From a virus: a DNA stretch of 22,630 bases. The translations under genes were made by a program, and so were the position numbers. Positions 3,307-22,630 of this stretch are shown piece after piece. The stretch lies in the IMG/VR virus record IMGVR_UViG_3300033153_004573, positions 1 through 22,630 of that record. One strand, written 5' to 3'. A model generated the notes under the pieces. It was not told where the DNA came from. It did no database searches and saw only the letters and a list, made by a program, of their open reading frames with translations. The stretch's first letter is position 1; every line of letters begins with the position of its first letter.

Positions 3307-3829
3307 AAATAAAACTTCTGTTGGAGGACATATTAATACACACCTGGAACTTAAATCATTACTTAGTAGTGATTATCTAGAAACAAAGGGAAAAGATATT
3401 AAAATAACTCCAAAAGGTAGAGCTTTAATGGTAAAGTATGATAATTACTTTGCAATTAACAAAAAGAGAACTACTCAACAATTACTAGGGAAAGAAGGGG
3501 CCATCAATGTAAAAGATTATCGTGAGATATTCCCACCAAGTAAGCTACCATCAGGTGTTCCAGCTAGAAATAATGTAAAAATACTAACTGAGAACTTTAG
3601 ATGGTTTTTTTCTGAATATGATTATTCATGGGAAGAAATTATTAAAGCAACTAAGATGTATGTAAATGAATTCAGAGACAAACAATATTTATATATGCAG
3701 AATAGTCAATATTTTATCTCAAAGCAGGATAAGCATAAGGTAAAAACATCAAAACTTGCTGATTATTGTGATATGATACGTGAGGGAGTGACAACTGAAG
3801 ATGATCATTTTAAAGAGAGAGTAGTATGA
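3233..3829 (+). CDS. Winged-helix replication protein, possible helicase loader
   Basis: The N-terminal 70 residues read as a winged helix: ITPNQCLLLLGI, then NTHLELKSLLSSDYLE, then a basic wing KDIKITPKGRALM. The C-terminal half has a helical region (WFFSEYDYSWEEIIKATKMY) followed by an aromatic Gln/Tyr stretch (QYLYMQNSQYFI) and KTSKLADYCD. This is the layout of phage replisome organisers of the DnaD/helicase-loader type, where the C-terminal part contacts helicase or DNA. The stop overlaps the helicase ATG (3826-3829), which agrees with a partner role. ATG 3254 is an alternative start that would shorten the overlap with the DnaA-like gene. The functional call is inference. Confidence 0.65.
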   Translation: MWELFQKMLKDKITPNQCLLLLGIRNKTSVGGHINTHLELKSLLSSDYLETKGKDIKITPKGRALMVKYDNYFAINKKRTTQQLLGKEGAINVKDYREIFPPSKLPSGVPARNNVKILTENFRWFFSEYDYSWEEIIKATKMYVNEFRDKQYLYMQNSQYFISKQDKHKVKTSKLADYCDMIREGVTTEDDHFKERVV

Positions 3830-4775
3830 GTAAGGTTTCAAAACATTGGGACAGTCAACATACTTCTTTTAGTCAAGCCCTAAAATATATGCTAGATAGG
3901 CAAACCGGGGTAGAGAAATCTATATATACTCCATGGCCTAAGTTTAATGATGCAGGAACAGATGGACTAGAATGGAATACTCTCACTGTAATTGGAGGCA
4001 GACCTGGTTCAGGTAAGACATTGATTAAAGATCAAATAGTTAGAGAATCATTTGGATTGAACCCAGAAGAGAAGTTTAGAGTACTGCAATTTCAATTTGA
4101 AATGGTAGGAAGGACTTCTGCAATAAGGGAGTTTAGCAGTTTAACTGGTAAAACTTATAAAGAACTTTGTAGTGCAGGATCTGTACTAACAGCTGATGTA
4201 TTTAATAAATGTCATGAATATGCAAAAGAGAGAGTAGGTCATCCTATAGATAATATTGAGAGACCCCTAACTGTAAACCAAATGAGAGAGCAGGTTGATA
4301 TGTATATGAATGAGAACAAAGGTGAGAACACCATTATAACACTTGATCATACTATATTAGTCAAGAGAGCTCCGTATCAAAATAACAGATTAGATATGTT
4401 ATTTGAATTAGGTGAGTTCTTTACTCAAGTTAAAAGAGATGTTTAATTATTGCATTATCACAGTTAAATAGAAATATAGATAATCCGGATAGAGCTACAG
4501 ATGGTAAATATGGGAACTATGTACTTGAATCAGATATATTTGGAGCTGATGCAATGTTACAACATGCTGATATGCTTGTTGGTATTAATAGGCCGGCTAA
4601 ACAGAAGATTAGATTTTATGGTCCGGATAGATATATAATTGAAGATGATAGAACTTTAGCATTTCATTTCTTAAAAGCAAGGAATGGTGATGCACGTATG
4701 AGTTTCTTTAAAGCAGAATTTGAAAGAATGGAAATATCAGAAATGGATACTCCAGCACAACAACAAAGAAGATGA
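3826..4775 (+). pseudogene. dnaB: DnaB-type replicative helicase interrupted by a frameshift
   Basis: The first frame (3826-4446, 206 codons) encodes the RecA-fold helicase core: Walker A GGRPGSGKT at residues 58-66, then LQFQFEM and the Walker B strand TIITLDHTI. It stops at TAA 4444-4446 just as the next core motif begins. Reading on from 4443 in the -1 frame gives LIIALSQLNRN, the expected DnaB motif, and continues for 110 residues to TGA at 4773-4775, including the DIFGADAMLQHADM stretch. One extra T in the run at 4442-4444 would restore a 316-residue helicase lacking the usual DnaB N-terminal domain. No other helicase lies in the window, so a sequencing error, an inactive allele or frameshifting are all possible. 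The gene overlaps its neighbours by ATGA on both sides. Confidence 0.85.
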
Positions 4776-9245: not shown

Positions 9246-10402
9246 ATATAACAGATGAATTATCTAGAGCTTCAAAGAGTTTAATACTTACAGAAGCATT
9301 TTACGGGTTATTTCTTATTGGATTAAATAAGAGATTTAGAGAGGATTTGCCAACAGCAGGTGTGAGTAAGCATGGTATTGGGATACAATTGTCCATAAAT
9401 CCTGCTTTCTTTAAAAATCTTACTGAAGATGAAAGAGTTGGTGTATTAAAACATGAATTATTACATGTTTCATTTGGACATCTTACATATAGAGATCGTT
9501 TTGAGAACAAAAAGTTATTTAACATAGCTGCTGATCTTGAAATCAATCAATATATTGATAGAACTTTTCTTCCAAGAGAAGCATTATTTTTAGATACATT
9601 TCCAGAACTTAATTTACCTGAAAGAGCTGGAACTAAAGTATACTATGATTTGCTACAACAAGCTTGTGATGATGGAAATTGTCCTTCATTGCAAAGTATA
9701 ATGGACCAAATGAATGGAGATAGTGTTTATGACCACCCAACATGGGATGAATTTGAAGAACTCACTGAAGCTGAGAAAAGATTGGTAGAGAAACAGATTG
9801 AATATCAAATAAAAGAGATTGCAGATCAAACTCAAAAGAGAAGAGGGACCATTCCTGGAGAGCTAGCAGAGATAATTGATAGATTAACAAATATACCACC
9901 GCCTAAATTTGATTGGAAAGGGTATTTGAGAAGGTTTGTTGGTAATTCTAGCATTGTATATACCAAGAAGATGAGGAGAAAGTATAACAAACGTTATAGT
10001 GAGAATCCAGGGCTTAAGATTAAGTTCAAGAATCATATCCTTGTTGGTGTAGATACATCTGGCTCAGTATCATCTAGTGAGCTAGAAGAGTTTAGAAATG
10101 AATTATGTCATATGCATAAGACTGGGCATAAAATTACTGTAGCACAGTGTGATACTCGCCTTGCTGATGTAAAAGAATTCAATCCCAAGAAAGATTGGGA
10201 AGTGAAAGGTAGAGGAGGCACAAGTTTCCAACCAGTTGTAGATCATTTTAATGAAAATAAAAAAAGATATACAGCACTTATATATTGTACAGATGGTGAA
10301 GCACCTGCTCCAGAAGAATGTCCAAAGAACACGTTATGGTGTTTGAGTTCAGATTCTTATGATAATGATGAGTTACCAGGATTAGTAATAAAATTAAATT
10401 AA
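9239..10402 (+). CDS. Metallopeptidase-like/VWA domain protein (DUF2201-type)
   Basis: Two domains are visible. The N-terminal domain carries HELLHVSFGH at residues 72-81, a zinc-metallopeptidase HExxH motif with a further His, followed by a conserved helix (NIAADLEINQYI). The C-terminal domain (about 265-387) is a von Willebrand A-like fold with a MIDAS: DTSGS at 272-276, Thr328 in GRGGTSF and Asp352 in YCTDGEA. This architecture is that of the DUF2201 proteins, which pair with MoxR-type AAA+ ATPases; the ATPase gene follows five bases downstream. By analogy with RavA-ViaA the pair may act as a chaperone or remodelling machine. Whether the peptidase site is active is unknown. The 387-residue length is normal for the family. 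Confidence 0.85.
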   Translation: MVNITDELSRASKSLILTEAFYGLFLIGLNKRFREDLPTAGVSKHGIGIQLSINPAFFKNLTEDERVGVLKHELLHVSFGHLTYRDRFENKKLFNIAADLEINQYIDRTFLPREALFLDTFPELNLPERAGTKVYYDLLQQACDDGNCPSLQSIMDQMNGDSVYDHPTWDEFEELTEAEKRLVEKQIEYQIKEIADQTQKRRGTIPGELAEIIDRLTNIPPPKFDWKGYLRRFVGNSSIVYTKKMRRKYNKRYSENPGLKIKFKNHILVGVDTSGSVSSSELEEFRNELCHMHKTGHKITVAQCDTRLADVKEFNPKKDWEVKGRGGTSFQPVVDHFNENKKRYTALIYCTDGEAPAPEECPKNTLWCLSSDSYDNDELPGLVIKLN

Positions 10403-10407
10403 AAATT

Positions 10408-11676
10408 ATGGCACAAGTAAGCTTAAATATTGATGAATTAAAAGATTTTGTAAACCATATAGTCTCCAATAATAGGTGGCTTCAGGAACAAAACAAACCA
10501 CCAGTTGCTGTTGAAGTAGTTGGTGAATCTGGAATTGGTAAAACATCTGTAGTTGTAGAGCTAGCAAAAGAGAATAATCTCAATTTTGTAAAGTTAAATC
10601 TAGCTCAAATAGAAGAATTAGGTGATTTAGTTGGATTTCCTGTGAGACAGTTTCAAATGTATAAGGAAAAAAAAGTTCCAAAGAAGGTTGATAATCTTAA
10701 CTATACTGCAGCCCAACGGGCTTCTGCATCTTCTGATGTAGCTAATATTGAGACAACTGTTACCAAGAAGATTGGTTTATGGGTAGATGAATTAGCAGTT
10801 CAGGAATATTTAAAGAATGGTTATAAGATGACTGGTAAAAACAGAATGTCTTATTGTGCGCCAGAATGGATTGCTAATAAAAAAGAAGGAGGTTTATTAC
10901 TTCTTGATGACTGGAATAGAGCAGATGTTAGGTTCATCCAGGCAGTAATGGAATTAATTGACAGACAAACCTATATATCATGGTCCCTTCCAAAGGATTG
11001 GCATATTGTGTTGACATCAAATCCAGATAATGGTGATTATATGGTAAATTCCATTGACTCAGCACAGAAAACCAGATATATTACAGCAAACTTAAAGTTT
11101 AATGTTGAAGTGTGGGCACGGTGGGCAGAAGAAGCAGGAATAGACACAAGATGTATAAACTTCTTATTATTAAATCCTGAGCTTGTAACTCAAGAAACAA
11201 ATGCAAGATCTATTACAACGTTTTTTAATGCTATATCTAGCTTTGAAGATTTTGAAAAAGATCTAAGTATGATCCAATTAATTGGAGAAGGTTCTGTTGG
11301 AGATACATTTGCATCTATGTTCACCACATTTATTAATAATAAACTGGACAAACTGGTGACACCAACTGATCTATTAACTCATGAGAATGAGCAATACATC
11401 TTAGGTGAACTAAAAAGTTGTATTGGTGAGGGTGATTCATATCGTGCGGATATTGCATCTACATTAGCCACCAGATTAGCTAATTTTTCAGTAGTATACT
11501 CTAAGGAAAGTACTATCACACAAAAGATAACAGATAGATTAATTGCTCTTTGTACAAAGAAGTATTTTACTGATGATCTGAAGTATCTTGTTGTAAGAAC
11601 TATATTTAACGGAAATAAACAGAAGTTTAACAAATTAATGATGAATCCTGAAATCATTAAAATGACAGTAAAGTAA
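10408..11676 (+). CDS. MoxR-type AAA+ ATPase
   Basis: The 422-residue protein has Walker A GESGIGKT at residues 39-46, Walker B LLLLDDWNRA at 163-172, sensor 1 TSNPDN at 203-208 and a likely Arg finger at 223 in QKTRYI. The DDWNRA and TSNPDN motifs are typical of MoxR/RavA-like AAA+ proteins (usually DEhNRA and TxNP). The C-terminal 180 residues are helical and presumably form the lid and a partner-binding region. The gene sits between the VWA protein and two large unknown proteins, with TAATG overlap into the next. MoxR-VWA pairs insert cofactors or remodel protein complexes; the phage target is not evident. Confidence 0.85.
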   Translation: MAQVSLNIDELKDFVNHIVSNNRWLQEQNKPPVAVEVVGESGIGKTSVVVELAKENNLNFVKLNLAQIEELGDLVGFPVRQFQMYKEKKVPKKVDNLNYTAAQRASASSDVANIETTVTKKIGLWVDELAVQEYLKNGYKMTGKNRMSYCAPEWIANKKEGGLLLLDDWNRADVRFIQAVMELIDRQTYISWSLPKDWHIVLTSNPDNGDYMVNSIDSAQKTRYITANLKFNVEVWARWAEEAGIDTRCINFLLLNPELVTQETNARSITTFFNAISSFEDFEKDLSMIQLIGEGSVGDTFASMFTTFINNKLDKLVTPTDLLTHENEQYILGELKSCIGEGDSYRADIASTLATRLANFSVVYSKESTITQKITDRLIALCTKKYFTDDLKYLVVRTIFNGNKQKFNKLMMNPEIIKMTVK

Positions 11677-12716
11677 TGAGCAAAAGTGTACATCAACATT
11701 ATAACTTAGATGCTCTAGAACACTTTGGATTAGAACATGCCCCAAAATATGGGGTGTGTTCTAACTCTGACGGAACAATAGAGACTATAATTGCAACTGA
11801 TTCAGAAACAACATACAATAAAATAAGAGATATACTAAGTACGGCAAAAACTACTAAGTCCATTGGTTCTTATAGTAAGGCATTCTTATTACCAAAATCT
11901 CCTATTTCTATAGACCGGATAAGATCTGGATTAAAGGAACATAAAGTTACATTAAGTAATGAATATGATGCGGCAGATTTATACGTGGTTCATGATGATT
12001 TTTATGATCATTTTAAAAATGGTCAAAATATTCATTCATCATGTATGATGGCCAAACTATGGAATTATGAAACATTTGATAGTTCAATTGGTTGGGGTGG
12101 AAGTAAGAATTATTGTACTACTACTGGTAATCAAATAGTATATGATACCAAATGTTCAGAATGGTTCAATATCTATTCAGGAAATTCATTTGATACTTTA
12201 TATGACGCTTGGATGATTTCAGGATTAGCAGTAAATATTGCTTATAAAATTGATATTGGAGAGGCTACTACTATATCATGTGATTCTGTGATGCATTCAT
12301 CAGCAAATGTACAAGTATTAACTGAACAATTAATGAAAGATTTGATTACACAAATTGAAGGTAATGAGGATGATGTTGCTCTTGCTGGTAAAATACTACC
12401 AACAATTGATTACAAAACTAATTATCACCTATTATGGGAATTTGCAAATCAAATTGATTCTAGTTTATGGAGATTTAATAGAAATAAAGATGTGCAGTAT
12501 TGGAAAGAACAAGCACAAATTCATGATTTAAATTATAGATCAGCAGAAGATATGATTCTATGGTTAGATGAAGAAAATCTTCTTGATGAAATCAGTTTTA
12601 GATACCTAGAACGTATTGTGAGAAAAGAAATAACAATTCACAATAGAAATCTATATGTATTTAAAATTCAAGTTAAACCTGAATACAGAAAATATTTAAG
12701 AACAAAAAAGAAATGA
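11676..12716 (+). CDS. Hypothetical protein, 346 aa, MoxR/VWA neighbour
   Basis: The N-terminal third (about residues 35-110) alternates strands and helices (TIIATDSETTYNKI, SIGSYSKAFLLP). The middle is rich in Cys, Ser and Trp (HSSCMMAKLW, GWGGSKNYCTT), and the C-terminal third is helical and charged, ending in a very basic tail (YRKYLRTKKK). No domain was recognised. The TAATG overlap with the ATPase gene means it is co-translated with the MoxR/VWA pair, making it a candidate substrate or adaptor. It has no signal peptide or membrane segment. Confidence 0.75.
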   Translation: MSKSVHQHYNLDALEHFGLEHAPKYGVCSNSDGTIETIIATDSETTYNKIRDILSTAKTTKSIGSYSKAFLLPKSPISIDRIRSGLKEHKVTLSNEYDAADLYVVHDDFYDHFKNGQNIHSSCMMAKLWNYETFDSSIGWGGSKNYCTTTGNQIVYDTKCSEWFNIYSGNSFDTLYDAWMISGLAVNIAYKIDIGEATTISCDSVMHSSANVQVLTEQLMKDLITQIEGNEDDVALAGKILPTIDYKTNYHLLWEFANQIDSSLWRFNRNKDVQYWKEQAQIHDLNYRSAEDMILWLDEENLLDEISFRYLERIVRKEITIHNRNLYVFKIQVKPEYRKYLRTKKK

Positions 12717-18087: not shown

Positions 18088-20076
18088 ATGAATCATTACA
18101 TAATGGACTATGAAACACTTTCAAATTGTTTTGTAGCTGTATTTAATCACTATAAGACTTCTGATCAGAAGATCTTTGTGGTACATAAGCTACAGAATGA
18201 TTTTGAAGAGTTTATAGAATTTTTAAGGAAAAATCAAAGAGATAAAGAGTGGCACATATCGTATAATGGTTTAGCATTTGATGCTCAAGTCACTCACTAT
18301 ATATTAGAAAAGTATGAGACGCTAAAGCATCTTACAGCTGAAGATATAACAAAAGCCATATATACATATGCGCAGTACTGTATAAATAAAAGCAATAATA
18401 GAGAATGGCAGGATTATGCTCCATGGGATATGAAGATTGGACAAATTGATGTATTTAAATTAAATCATTGGGATAATCCAGCTAAAATGTCATCACTGAA
18501 GTGGATTCAGTATAGTATGGACTGGGATAACATCCTGGACATGCCAATAGAGCACACTGCTGAGATAAAAACAAAGAAAGAGATAAAAACCATAGTTAAG
18601 TATTGTATCAATGATGTTGAATCAACAAAAGAGATATATAATAGATCCAAGCCGGAGATTGCAATACGTAAAGAGCTTACTGATAGATACGGCATTAATT
18701 TGTATTCTGCTGCTGAGCCAACAATAAGTAAAGAGTTATTTTCATATTACTTAGCTAAAGATCTGGGGATTCCAAAGTATGAATTAAAAAAGTTACGTAC
18801 TTATAGAGATACCATTAAGGTTAATAATGTTATTTTACCAATTATTGATTTCAAAAGCCCAGAATTTAAGCTTCTTTTAAACAAATTTAAGTCTGCTGAG
18901 CTTGACCCAGAAAAATTAAAAGGAAGTTTTAAGCACACTGTTAAGTATAAAGGTGTTCAAACTTATTTTGGTGTAGGAGGAGTGCATGGGGCAACTATTC
19001 CTGGGGTATATGAAAGTGATGAAGATAATATAATAATGACATCAGATGTTGTTAGCTTTTATCCAAACTTGGCCATAAGAAACAAATGGTCCCCAGCTCA
19101 CTTAGATAAAAAACTATTTTCTGAGCTATATGAATGGTTCTTTAATGAAAGAAAGAAGATTCCTAAGAGTAATCCAATGAATTATGTATATAAAATTATA
19201 TTAAATTCAACTTTTGGTCTTAGTAATGAGAAGAATTCCTTTCTGTATGATCCTGAATTATTAATTCGTGTAACAGTTAATGGCCAGCTTACTCTAATGA
19301 TGCTTTATGAAATGATTATGGAAGCCATCCCGGGAGCTCAAGCTTTAATGCAGAACACAGATGGTATTGAGACAAGGATTCCTAGAGAATACAAGGATAA
19401 ATACATGGAAATCTGTGAAGAGTGGGAAAAACTCACTAATCTGCAGCTAGAACATGATATGTATCAAAAATTGATACTAGCTGATGTAAATTGCTACATA
19501 GCAGTTCATGACTATAAAGAAGTAGATATGGGTACCTGGAGAGAAATAAAGAAGAAGAATCCTCACTATCTATTCAGAGTCAAAGGAAATAAGTTTGAGT
19601 ATGCAAGTACTAAATGTAAGGGACGATTTGAATTCAACAATTTATTCTTACATAAAAATAAGTCAAAACTTATTGTTCCTAAAGGTATTTATGCTTACTT
19701 TGTAAAAGGAATGCTTCCATCTGACTATATACAATCTAATAAAAATATTCTTGATTTTTGTATAGGAGGAAAGTCTAAGGGAGACTGGAGACAGGTATCC
19801 CGTTATATTAAAGATGACCATCAGGCGGAAGATAAACTTCAGAAAATTAATAGATACTACATATCTAATAAAGGGTCAAAAATTATAAAAGTTAATCAGA
19901 AGGATGGCAGAGAGATTCAACTTGAAGCTGGCCCATGGTTACAAACAATCTATAATAAAATGAAACTTTATACAAGATGGAGTGCATATGATATTAACTA
20001 TTTATATTATATAAAGGCCATTGAAAAAGAGATTAGTAATATTATGGCTGAGACAAACCAATTAAAACTATTCTAA
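18088..20076 (+). CDS. Family B DNA polymerase with 3'-5' exonuclease
   Basis: I place the start at ATG 18088 (662 aa) because the upstream in-frame ATG 18058 lies in a terminator loop; ATG 18103 is also possible. Exonuclease motifs are DYETLSNCF (Asp7, Glu9), NGLAFD (60-65) and YCINDVEST (Asp176). Polymerase motif A is SDVVSFYPNLA (Asp320), motif B is KIILNSTFG (369-377) and motif C is QNTDGIE (422-428). Here the first Asp of the usual DTD is Asn, while the metal-binding Asp425 is kept. The protein ends QLKLF (20059-20073), a close match to the bacterial beta-clamp motif QLxLF. It is the main replicative polymerase of this phage and overlaps the next gene as TAATG. Confidence 0.93.
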   Translation: MNHYIMDYETLSNCFVAVFNHYKTSDQKIFVVHKLQNDFEEFIEFLRKNQRDKEWHISYNGLAFDAQVTHYILEKYETLKHLTAEDITKAIYTYAQYCINKSNNREWQDYAPWDMKIGQIDVFKLNHWDNPAKMSSLKWIQYSMDWDNILDMPIEHTAEIKTKKEIKTIVKYCINDVESTKEIYNRSKPEIAIRKELTDRYGINLYSAAEPTISKELFSYYLAKDLGIPKYELKKLRTYRDTIKVNNVILPIIDFKSPEFKLLLNKFKSAELDPEKLKGSFKHTVKYKGVQTYFGVGGVHGATIPGVYESDEDNIIMTSDVVSFYPNLAIRNKWSPAHLDKKLFSELYEWFFNERKKIPKSNPMNYVYKIILNSTFGLSNEKNSFLYDPELLIRVTVNGQLTLMMLYEMIMEAIPGAQALMQNTDGIETRIPREYKDKYMEICEEWEKLTNLQLEHDMYQKLILADVNCYIAVHDYKEVDMGTWREIKKKNPHYLFRVKGNKFEYASTKCKGRFEFNNLFLHKNKSKLIVPKGIYAYFVKGMLPSDYIQSNKNILDFCIGGKSKGDWRQVSRYIKDDHQAEDKLQKINRYYISNKGSKIIKVNQKDGREIQLEAGPWLQTIYNKMKLYTRWSAYDINYLYYIKAIEKEISNIMAETNQLKLF

Positions 20077-20273
20077 TGGATGAACCAAAAAAAGAAGTAG
20101 ATGATCTACATAATGGGAAAATGTTCTTCAGTAAAGAAGAAGCCATAGAATTCAGAGAAGCGTATGCAAAAGCAACAAATGCTGATGAAAGATCTTTCAG
20201 ATACAACGGGGAGACTTTTGATATTGTATACGCTAAGTATCTGATTAGTTATTTAAGAATGAGCGGATATTAA
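20076..20273 (+). CDS. Hypothetical protein, 65 aa
   Basis: This small acidic protein starts MDEPKKEVDDLHNGKMFF. It has a helix FSKEEAIEFREAYAKAT (residues 18-34), then a strand FRYNGETFDIVYAKY and a short helix. The compact alpha-beta pattern suggests a folded domain, but no family is recognised. The ATG overlaps the polymerase stop (TAATG), so it is translationally coupled to it and may be a polymerase-associated factor. That is inference only. Confidence 0.65.
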   Translation: MDEPKKEVDDLHNGKMFFSKEEAIEFREAYAKATNADERSFRYNGETFDIVYAKYLISYLRMSGY

Positions 20274-20290
20274 CAATTAAAACCAATAAA

Positions 20291-21436
20291 ATGGGATATA
20301 CAAGACCAACAGAAACAACTAAATACATTTTAGAAACAAGTCCTTTGCCGTCACATGGGGATACATACACTGTAATACCTCATAAAGACGTTATGAATCA
20401 CACAGAGCAACTTTTAGCTCAGAATGGATTCATGATAGAGAAAGTACTTTACAGAGCCAATATGAACGCCCAGGTGGCTCAGGGCATATATCATATAAAA
20501 GCAATACCACAGGTGTTTAGCTTATATTCTTCTGAAGTTCAAGAAGAAGAAGATTTAGGTATGATGTTTGCATGGACTAACTCTTATGACAAGAGCACAA
20601 GATTCCAATGTGCAATAGGAGCATATGTTATGTGCTGCAACAACGGAGTAGTATGTGGAGATATGGCAAACTTTGCCAGAAAACATACTGGTTCAGCAGA
20701 TACTGAGGTACATGCTCAAATTTCATCACAAATTAAGAGTGCACATAAGTTCTTTAAGACTATTGTGAATGATAAGAATAATCTTAGGACCATTACACTG
20801 TCCACTAAAGAACAAGCAGAATTGCTTGGAAGGTTATTTTTTGACAATAAACTTTTAGATGTAACACAGATGTCATGCATTAAATCAGAAATGAATGAAT
20901 CTAGTTATGATTATAAATCAGATGCTGATAGCGCCTGGACATTTTATAATAATGTTACACATGCTTTCAAAAAGACTCATCCTAGAAATTGGTTGAGTGA
21001 TCAGCAAAAGTTTCATGAGTTCATAGTAGCGGATGTTCTGGGGAAAATGGGTGTAAATCAAAAAGACACCATAGATCCCAATCAAGTAATGACTGAGTCA
21101 GAACTATCACAAAGTATAGATGGCCATGCTGCCGTGACAGAGACTTTAGATATAAATGAAACTGAGTCAGAACCTATACCCACTGATATTACGGTTGAAA
21201 ACCAACATGCACATAGAGTGCACACTGGAGTTGAAGTTATGCCGGGCAAGGTATCTGAAAGTATTTTTAAAGAAGAGCAGGATAAAGCAAATATGAGTGC
21301 AGATCTTGAAACTAGTGATCAGGGGAAGCCATTTTATACTGAGGAAGCTAATGATCAAAATGTATATGACAATTCAATAAAGGTCTCTGAAGAAAATGAA
21401 ATAGATTTTGAGGAAGACGGAAGCTTTGAAATTTAA
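20291..21436 (+). CDS. DUF932 family protein, 381 aa
   Basis: Residues about 30-250 follow the DUF932 pattern found in phages and plasmids: a beta-rich N-terminal part (VLYRANMNAQVAQGIYHIKA, FAWTNSYDKSTRFQCAIGAY), then VMCCNNGVVCGD and a helical half with HKFFKTI and WTFYNNVTHAFKKTHPRNWL. The last 120 residues are acidic, Ser/Thr/Glu-rich and probably disordered. The biochemical role of DUF932 is not established; plasmid and phage contexts suggest a link to DNA replication or conjugation. The gene has an A-rich leader and lies after the polymerase and a small gene. The long acidic tail is unusual and may be a lineage-specific extension. Confidence 0.75.
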   Translation: MGYTRPTETTKYILETSPLPSHGDTYTVIPHKDVMNHTEQLLAQNGFMIEKVLYRANMNAQVAQGIYHIKAIPQVFSLYSSEVQEEEDLGMMFAWTNSYDKSTRFQCAIGAYVMCCNNGVVCGDMANFARKHTGSADTEVHAQISSQIKSAHKFFKTIVNDKNNLRTITLSTKEQAELLGRLFFDNKLLDVTQMSCIKSEMNESSYDYKSDADSAWTFYNNVTHAFKKTHPRNWLSDQQKFHEFIVADVLGKMGVNQKDTIDPNQVMTESELSQSIDGHAAVTETLDINETESEPIPTDITVENQHAHRVHTGVEVMPGKVSESIFKEEQDKANMSADLETSDQGKPFYTEEANDQNVYDNSIKVSEENEIDFEEDGSFEI

Positions 21437-21447
21437 AATTAATAATA

Positions 21448-21708
21448 ATGGATAAAAAAAACTGGGCATTTACAAAAGCTGATGAATCTGCAGTACCTAA
21501 GAAAATAAAAAAGAGAAGTGGGAGTAAACTCACTTCTCTTAAAAACAGGTATCTAGGAAAATTTAAATGCAGAAAATGTAAAGAAAAAACTCAACATATT
21601 TTTCCAGTTGAAATAAACATGAATGCCGCAAACAATGCAGATATAAGAAAACTAAGAGTTTGTGCAGTATGTTATAATAACTCTAAATTAGAAAAACATG
21701 ATCTATAA
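21448..21708 (+). CDS. Zinc-ribbon protein, 86 aa
   Basis: The protein has a basic N-terminal region (KKIKKRSGSKLTSLKNRY) followed by a zinc ribbon with Cys41-x2-Cys44 and Cys72-x2-Cys75. The basic stretch and ribbon together suggest binding to nucleic acid or RNA polymerase. The ATG of the MazG-like gene lies in the last codons, so the two are coupled. A strong hairpin (21511-21540) lies inside the coding sequence, early in the gene. Confidence 0.75.
   Translation: MDKKNWAFTKADESAVPKKIKKRSGSKLTSLKNRYLGKFKCRKCKEKTQHIFPVEINMNAANNADIRKLRVCAVCYNNSKLEKHDL
21511..21540 (+). repeat. Perfect 10-bp inverted repeat inside the zinc-ribbon gene
   Basis: AAGAGAAGTG (21511-21520) and CACTTCTCTT (21531-21540) are perfectly complementary around a ten-base loop that can add a few inner pairs (GAGT/ACTC). 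It lies 64 bases into the gene and codes for the basic region. There is no strong T-run after it, so attenuation, mRNA protection or a DNA-level site are alternatives to termination. Confidence 0.7.
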
Positions 21709-22012
21709 AGACTATTTTGAATTAGAATGCTGTGTTGAAGAATGGGCAAAAGAAAAAGGAATATTTGAGAAGGGTACCCCAATGAGTCAAGCACTAAAAA
21801 CACAAGAAGAGTTAACAGAACTATTAATAGCTATTAATAATAATGATAGGAGTGAAATAGCAGATGCCATAGGAGATATTATGGTAACTTTAATCATCCA
21901 GGCTAAAATGCAGGGACTTACCATAGAAGAATGCCTCAATCTTGCTTATGATATTATCAGTAAGAGAAAAGGAAAGATGGTTGATGGTCAATTTGTTAAA
22001 GAAAATGAATAA
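21698..22012 (+). CDS. MazG-like nucleotide pyrophosphohydrolase
   Basis: MazG-type enzymes hydrolyse nucleoside triphosphates or related nucleotides to monophosphate and pyrophosphate. The 104-residue protein has the expected all-helical metal site: Glu37, Glu38 and Glu41 in QEELTEL, then Glu53, Asp56 and Asp60 in SEIADAIGD, matching the pattern EExxE...ExxDxxxD. The length is that of a single-domain MazG-like protein. In phages such enzymes may alter host (p)ppGpp or nucleotide pools; the substrate here cannot be read from sequence. The start overlaps the zinc-ribbon gene and the end overlaps the exported-protein gene by eight bases. Confidence 0.8.
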   Translation: MIYKDYFELECCVEEWAKEKGIFEKGTPMSQALKTQEELTELLIAINNNDRSEIADAIGDIMVTLIIQAKMQGLTIEECLNLAYDIISKRKGKMVDGQFVKENE

Positions 22013-22265
22013 GCTATTGTTCTTTCTTTTGTTAAGCTCTGCACTGTATGCTCAAGATAAAGTTCCGTCATATAATCATATAATATCAGTGGTAACTGAG
22101 AACCGGGATACATTATATCTTATTAACAATGAGGTTGGTCAAATAATAAAGGAAGTTTGGAATGAATTTGATGAATTCAAAGAAGAGAAGCCAACTATAA
22201 TTATGAAACCAAAAGAATGGCTAATCTGTGAAAATAAGAAAAGATGTCTGGAAATGAAGAATTAA
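22005..22265 (+). CDS. Small exported protein with signal peptide, 86 aa
   Basis: I chose ATG 22005, which overlaps the MazG stop and gives a clean signal peptide; an upstream in-frame ATG at 21942 would bury it. The first 17 residues are MNKLLFFLLLSSALYAQ, with a Lys, a hydrophobic core and an Ala-Tyr-Ala|Gln cleavage site. Gln at +1 is common in exported proteins of Bacteroidota. There is no lipobox Cys. The mature part is about 70 residues and acidic in its middle (EFDEFKEEK), with two Cys near the end (ICENKKRCLE) that could form a disulfide. It is probably periplasmic. Superinfection exclusion or a lysis accessory role are possible but unproven. Confidence 0.65.
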   Translation: MNKLLFFLLLSSALYAQDKVPSYNHIISVVTENRDTLYLINNEVGQIIKEVWNEFDEFKEEKPTIIMKPKEWLICENKKRCLEMKN

Positions 22266-22405
22266 AATTAATAGCCATAAGAATATATGAAATTGTAGAA
22301 GGCAGTTCCAATGAATATGATGCTGTGGAAAGAATAGAAGATTATTTATCATTGGTCTTCCATATGAAAAAGTTACAAAGAGAAGACTTATCTCGTGAGG
22401 GATAG
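22244..22405 (+). CDS. Small hypothetical protein, 53 aa
   Basis: ATG 22244 lies inside the end of the exported-protein gene, and the frame ends at TAG 22403-22405. The product is acidic and helical (ELKLIAIRIYEIVEG, AVERIEDYLSLVFHM) with no membrane segment. The overlap style matches its neighbours, and it is the last coding sequence before the non-coding end of the window. The family was not recognised. Confidence 0.55.
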   Translation: MSGNEELKLIAIRIYEIVEGSSNEYDAVERIEDYLSLVFHMKKLQREDLSREG

Positions 22406-22462
22406 GTGGGGTTTTTAGGGTTCTTTCAGTGCACCTTCATTTTCCCTCTTTCATCTTCTCTT

Positions 22463-22487
22463 AAGCAGCAGCTAGTCACTGCTGCTT
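22463..22487 (+). terminator. Perfect 9-bp hairpin
   Basis: AAGCAGCAG (22463-22471) pairs perfectly with CTGCTGCTT (22479-22487) across the seven-base loop CTAGTCA. The tail GTTATT is only weakly T-rich. It is the first hairpin after the last gene, so termination of the rightward operon is the simplest role. The loop is itself complementary to 22524-22529. Confidence 0.65.
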
Positions 22488-22495
22488 GTTATTAA

Positions 22496-22572
22496 GACGG
22501 GTGAATAGATGCTCCACTATGAGTGACTACATGTCCCGTCAAGGTCTAACTAACCTTTCATAAACATGTAGT
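22496..22572 (+). ncRNA. Pseudoknot-like pair of stems
   Basis: GACGGG (22496-22501) is complementary to CCCGTC (22535-22540). ACTACATGT (22526-22534), inside the loop of that stem, is complementary to ACATGTAGT (22564-22572). The two stems abut at 22534/22535 and would stack as an H-type pseudoknot. The second loop contains a further small stem AAGGT/ACCTT (22541-22545 with 22553-22557). All pairings are perfect in the sequence. Whether the region is transcribed and on which strand is unknown. Confidence 0.5.
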
Positions 22573-22589
22573 TGAATTAGTTCAGATTG

Positions 22590-22622
22590 AAGGTCCCTCA
22601 TCCCTACAAGTGAGGGCTCCTT
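22590..22622 (+). terminator. GC-rich hairpin at the end of the window
   Basis: CCCTCA (22595-22600) pairs with TGAGGG (22611-22616) around a ten-base loop. AAGG (22590-22593) and CCTT (22619-22622) extend the stem across a small internal mismatch. The tail TCTATTCTG is moderately T-rich. It may be a terminator acting in either direction at a module boundary, or the last stem of the structured element. Confidence 0.55.
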
Positions 22623-22630
22623 CTATTCTG

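Follow-up and report, generated by a model that had tools for sequence, protein, structure and literature searches.

Small riboswitches of the preQ1-II and SAM-II types are H-type pseudoknots, and in preQ1-II the long loop contains an extra hairpin. Type III antitoxin RNAs (ToxI) consist of tandem pseudoknot repeats located 5' of a ToxN-like gene, and HDV-like ribozymes are nested double pseudoknots in which a hairpin (P3) lies between the 5' strand of P2 and the 3' strand of P1. The ligand of the gene 32 operator of phage T4, gp32, is a zinc protein. This translational operator, described in T4 and RB69, has its pseudoknot first, then UUAAA/UAAA repeats, then the start codon; in T4 the knot spans about 28 nt, and the SSB gp32 binds it (PMC535899). 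Here we describe the end of a marine phage fragment that very probably carries a small knotted RNA, real and functional. Judged from its sequence, the stretch 22496-22574 encodes, on the same strand as the replication genes, an RNA pseudoknot of the H type; we put the probability that it is a real conserved RNA at roughly 85%.

The window, that is, the whole stretch of DNA that was analysed, is an entire IMG/VR record of 22,630 b and a fragment, its tail being cut by the contig end. It holds the replication block of a large phage, with nearly all genes on the + strand: a DNA polymerase (672 aa; PHROG 1252), a DnaB-like helicase, a ligase, an ATPase, a VWA/metallopeptidase-like protein, a DUF932 protein (the anchor gene of the neighbourhood) and MazG. 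Related IMG/VR records reach ~120 kb in length, except for one of 246 kb, and the best polymerase matches among cultured phages, Cellulophaga phage phi14:2 among them, reach 31-35% identity. A single 245,646-b record (IMGVR_UViG_3300030098_004828) has two separate DUF932 loci (L013 and L026), and is possibly a joined or concatenated assembly. The DnaB-like helicase of the window is spread over two frames around 4419-4560 (3826-4446, then another frame from ~4430 that reads LSQLNRNIDNPDRATDG...), as the result of a frameshift, an assembly error or a programmed event. Gene order after the polymerase is reshuffled among relatives, as between window 20076-22405 and 10000-12520 of locus L087 (contig IMGVR_UViG_3300033144_006180); MazG directly follows the polymerase in many loci, and in the window stands behind a gene for a CxxC...CxxC zinc-ribbon protein. 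This protein has no Pfam match, and neither it nor a 107-aa frame recovered relatives when used as queries; an HMM picked up the zinc ribbon in the window and the L087/L003 contig alone. A perfect 12-bp hairpin, AAGAGAAGTGGG...CTCACTTCTCTT (21511-21540; z -6.7), lies within its coding sequence.

The non-coding tail begins immediately past the stop codon of the last ORF (22405) and contains no ORF longer than 32 aa. The initial annotation had described this tail as less AT-rich than its surroundings and as holding six perfect pairings, and both statements are borne out: GC content is 0.43, against 0.315 for the window, and all six pairings are perfectly complementary (22463-22471/22479-22487, 22496-22501/22535-22540, 22526-22534/22564-22572, 22541-22545/22553-22557, 22595-22600/22611-22616 and 22473-22480/22522-22529). 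The comparison of folding energy with shuffled sequence that it had suggested is also favourable, at -70.7 kcal/mol (z -4.5) with 0 of 200 shuffles equally good. This z-score ranks seventh of 196 scored windows, and several coding windows reach similar values; folding energy alone is therefore weak evidence, and we dropped it as a sole argument. The arrangement of the helices was examined separately: a zero-gap Watson-Crick pseudoknot of 6+9 bp occurred in none of 2000 dinucleotide shuffles of the tail, and any perfect 9-bp hairpin in 11 of 2000. The best nested fold of the pseudoknot bases is stable as well (-18.7 kcal/mol), and since the energy model used scores no pseudoknots, stability does not decide for the knotted form.

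Strands follow one another in the crossed order P1 5' - P2 5' - P1 3' - P2 3', both in the window and in L087 (Table 1). P1 has 6 bp, and P2 has 11 bp when two terminal G-U pairs beyond its 9-bp helix are counted. P2 contains U-G and G-U pairs in both members, at its distal end in the window and elsewhere in L087; because on the other strand these would be A-C mismatches, the structure belongs to RNA of the + strand. Loop 1 includes GCTC...GAG (22511-22514/22521-22523), a possible 3-bp hairpin kept in L087, the helix weak and the sequence conserved. The conserved core TGTCCCRTCAAGGT (22532-22545) includes the 3' strand of P1.

Table 1. Coordinates of the pseudoknot, its flanking features and the RNA loci of relatives
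Feature	Position	Strand	Remarks
DUF932 protein	20291-21436	+	Pfam PF06067, E 1.7e-17
Zinc-ribbon protein, 86 aa	21448-21708	+	homolog in L087, 24 nt 3' of pseudoknot
ORF of 53 aa, immediately 5' of the tail	22244-22405	+	no family match
9-bp hairpin 5' of pseudoknot, then TTGTTATT	22463-22487	+	terminator-like; absent from L087
P1 5' strand, GACGGG	22496-22501	+	pairs with 22535-22540
Loop 1, crossing P2; TGA after P1	22502-22523	+	from alignments of window and L087
P2 5' strand, TGACTACATGT	22524-22534	+	pairs with 22564-22574; P1 3' strand follows directly (0 nt)
P1 3' strand, CCCGTC	22535-22540	+	pairs with 22496-22501
P4 hairpin in loop 3, AAGGT-ctaacta-ACCTT	22541-22557	+	L087: AGGT-tggtt-ACCT
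Junction P4 to P2 3' strand, 6 nt, TCATAA	22558-22563	+	L087: AATAAA
P2 3' strand, ACATGTAGTTG	22564-22574	+	pairs with 22524-22534
Terminal two-step hairpin, GAAGG-CCCTCA...TGAGGG-CCTTC	22589-22623	+	z -3.2; absent from L087
AACCAAC RNA of relatives	L137:11488-11542, L098:11271-11323, L150:11893-11947, L018:9256-9303, ~50 others	+	found by covariance model

P1, the 11-bp P2 and P4 recur in one relative, at L087:11978-12054, where the element was found by reading the gaps between genes of relatives. It reads GATGGG-TAAGTTAAGGCTCTGGCTCGGAG-AGAATAGGTGT-CCCATC-A-AGGT-TGGTT-ACCT-AATAAA-GCATCTATTCT, and sits between an 81-aa gene and the zinc-ribbon gene, beginning 4 nt past one stop codon and ending 24 nt before the next start codon. 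All 17 pairs of P1 and P2 are kept between the two sequences, with four double changes, three consistent single changes and none broken: one double compensatory change with five pairs unchanged in P1 (GATGGG/CCCATC), and three double, three consistent single and five unchanged in P2. When the P2 partner is slid by 1-3 bases, only 2-7 of the 11 pairs remain. This covariation rests on two sequences, both from one clade (window, L087 and L088; support 1.0 in the polymerase tree), in which the polymerases of window and L087 are 67% identical and the L088 contig stops short of the element. Broken stems in relatives, which the initial annotation had named as grounds for giving up the structure, are thus absent from P1 and P2 in this one relative, and its proposal of an undescribed phage ncRNA, a 6+9 pseudoknot with a nested hairpin, gains a homolog with compensatory changes and no Rfam match.

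Letters common to both members, unpaired or partly paired, are GGGTRA, GCTC...GAG, TGTCCC and TCAAGGT. When the gap of the window and that of L087 were aligned locally, one scoring scheme gave an equally good result in 1 of 2000 shuffles and a second scheme in 11 of 2000. A topology scan of ~160 fetched loci placed the window first and L087 second, by a score that rewards letters which the two have in common. Leaving this reward out brings a few other loci to about the same level, and hence the evidence is that of topology, position and shared core combined. Other searches for members were negative: blastn and nhmmer found nothing significant between the tail and relatives, blastn found no match in cultured phages, and three DNA-pattern scans of IMG/VR found the knot in the L087 contig alone. 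As a control of specificity, neither the 25 other viral matches of the loosest pattern nor 11 chance matches in bacterial (GTDB) genomes had an intact P1 plus a P2 of at least 8 bp, and a 2-mismatch pattern run over ~98 whole relative records gave no new knot, its match rates being about those of a reversed-pattern control. The members found are two in all, from one clade. Searches for tRNA and tmRNA gave none, and Rfam, at the gathering threshold and at E up to 10, gave nothing credible; an Rfam-catalogued family was accordingly rejected, none reaching the gathering threshold.

The two members differ in their surroundings. L087 has no counterpart of the 22463-22487 hairpin, of the terminal hairpin (22595-22616) or of the TAGTCACT/AGTGACTA helix. 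The mutually exclusive helices had been read as typical of switching or kissing-loop RNAs; with the first hairpin (the competing loop) and the AGTGACTA partner both missing in L087, that reading is left unsupported.

Most relatives carry a different covarying RNA hairpin shortly 3' of the DUF932 gene. It consists of stem 1, an AACCAAC bulge on the 5' side, stem 2 and often a TTTTTGCATT loop, with the return strands joined directly. A covariance model detects it, in every case on the + strand, in 54 of the 89 sources. The alignment of 45 distinct sequences has 96% of its cells paired, and 16 of 17 pairs have changed on both sides. Covariation scores 0.764, compared with 0.222 for shuffles, a comparison favoured by the model-fitted alignment; in a similar first round, a slide of one column gave 0.145-0.204. 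This RNA has no match in Rfam, and its models match neither the window nor L087/L003, so that it is separate from the pseudoknot; within the sampled relatives, the two never occur together. A likeness of the first hairpin, on the minus strand, to the AACCAAC hairpin (TCTTAA-taacaa-GCAGCAG) was set aside, as the models do not recognise it.

What the pseudoknot does can be approached through its position. Most likely, at odds that we consider about even, it is a cis-acting element between genes of the replication operon: carried in the polycistronic mRNA, it would be bound by a protein (most likely) or act through sheer stability, and would thereby determine how a neighbouring cistron is translated or decays, in the manner of the operator pseudoknot of T4 gene 32. 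It is possibly a protein-binding translational operator of that type, by analogy with a phage pseudoknot likewise among replication genes, although its place in an mRNA is here inferred. The likeness is closest in L087, where TTTTAAATATAAAATT / AAAGAGCATTTTAAATATAAAATT, an AU-rich leader, and then the ATG of the CxxC...CxxC gene come after the knot. AU-rich stretches are, however, common in the genomes of these phages. In the window the knot is followed by a hairpin and then by the contig end, with no AU-rich leader seen, and the gene order differs from the T4 layout. Unlike the T4 operator, moreover, the knot is ~79 nt long with hairpins in its loops, and the protein encoded 3' of it, a short zinc ribbon, belongs to no known family. 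That zinc-ribbon gene lies directly 3' of the knot in L087 and ~800 nt 5' of it in the window, and the flanking gene differs, which weakens the case for regulation of one fixed gene; the co-occurrence of zinc ribbon and knot on two contigs means little, because both belong to one clade. Since the window has its zinc-ribbon gene 5' of the knot, we treat the operator interpretation as a lead and not a result. It is doubtful, too, that the knot represents a new class, an autogenous or ligand-responsive operator of the zinc-ribbon and replication genes that would replace the AACCAAC-bulge hairpin in this clade.

A free small RNA, cut out of the operon transcript or transcribed independently from a separate promoter, and acting in trans or by sequestering a protein, is less likely than a cis-acting element and on the whole improbable. 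The compact, self-contained fold of ~79 nt with non-conserved neighbours would suit it, as would the strong hairpins at 22463 and 22589 that bound the knot in the window, the upstream one terminator-like; in L087, however, 4 nt separate the knot from the gene before it and 24 nt from the gene after it, with no flanking hairpins or terminator, and no sigma-70-type promoter is found just 5' on the + strand (a consensus that is not of the Bacteroidetes type). The 22463-22487 hairpin could be a terminator, a GC-rich hairpin plus U-run being loosely present at 22467-22486, and if it is, the knot downstream would need read-through or a promoter of its own. The same hairpin, with its U-rich tail, enters into another unlikely reading, in which pseudoknot and hairpins would block 3'-5' exonucleases or end transcription of the operon. 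The tail does come after the last ORF of the contig, and a different structured hairpin occupies the same stretch in relatives; against this, the knot of L087 precedes two further same-strand genes and so is not at the operon end there, and no U-run of the kind that marks an intrinsic terminator follows the knot.

We see only a slim chance of a ligand-sensing pseudoknot (riboswitch) or a self-cleaving ribozyme of a class not known. H-type pseudoknots with an extra hairpin do exist among small riboswitches, the long-loop hairpin here resembling that of preQ1-II, and the core letters GGGTRA and TGTCCC...TCAAGGT, unpaired, are kept in both members. Unlike preQ1-II and SAM-II, though, the knot lacks a plausible counterpart in Rfam, even with E allowed to reach 10, other letters are conserved and no known metabolic gene lies 3' of it, and from two sequences a conserved binding pocket cannot be shown. 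With HDV-like ribozymes it shares a long-range pseudoknot and a hairpin like P4 that precedes the 3' strand of P2; that topology is excluded, however, as the P2 5' and P1 3' strands abut (0 nt) and there is no P3 hairpin. Two more candidates were rejected: a type III antitoxin RNA, which like ToxI would be an RNA pseudoknot that a phage or mobile element carries beside a gene (the knot is single-copy in both contigs, with no ToxN/AbiQ-like gene seen), and a -1 frameshift pseudoknot (no ORF longer than 32 aa crosses the knot in the window, and the L087 knot is intergenic). A DNA element, the replication origin or packaging site that the initial annotation had also entertained, is hardly credible, for although inverted repeats adjoin replication genes and a convergent block lies beyond the knot and two more genes in L087, GC skew remains above zero and does not turn as the tail is approached, and the G-U pairs of P2, which exist only in + strand RNA, would be G-T mismatches in a DNA cruciform, contrary to an inverted repeat at the DNA level.

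With neither RNA matching Rfam, structured RNAs of the uncultured phages in this group appear to be uncatalogued. A compact pseudoknot with compensatory changes across polymerases 67% identical is a testable candidate for an RNA regulator, and the second, unrelated covarying RNA in most relatives points to the end of the replication block as a probable site of RNA-based control.
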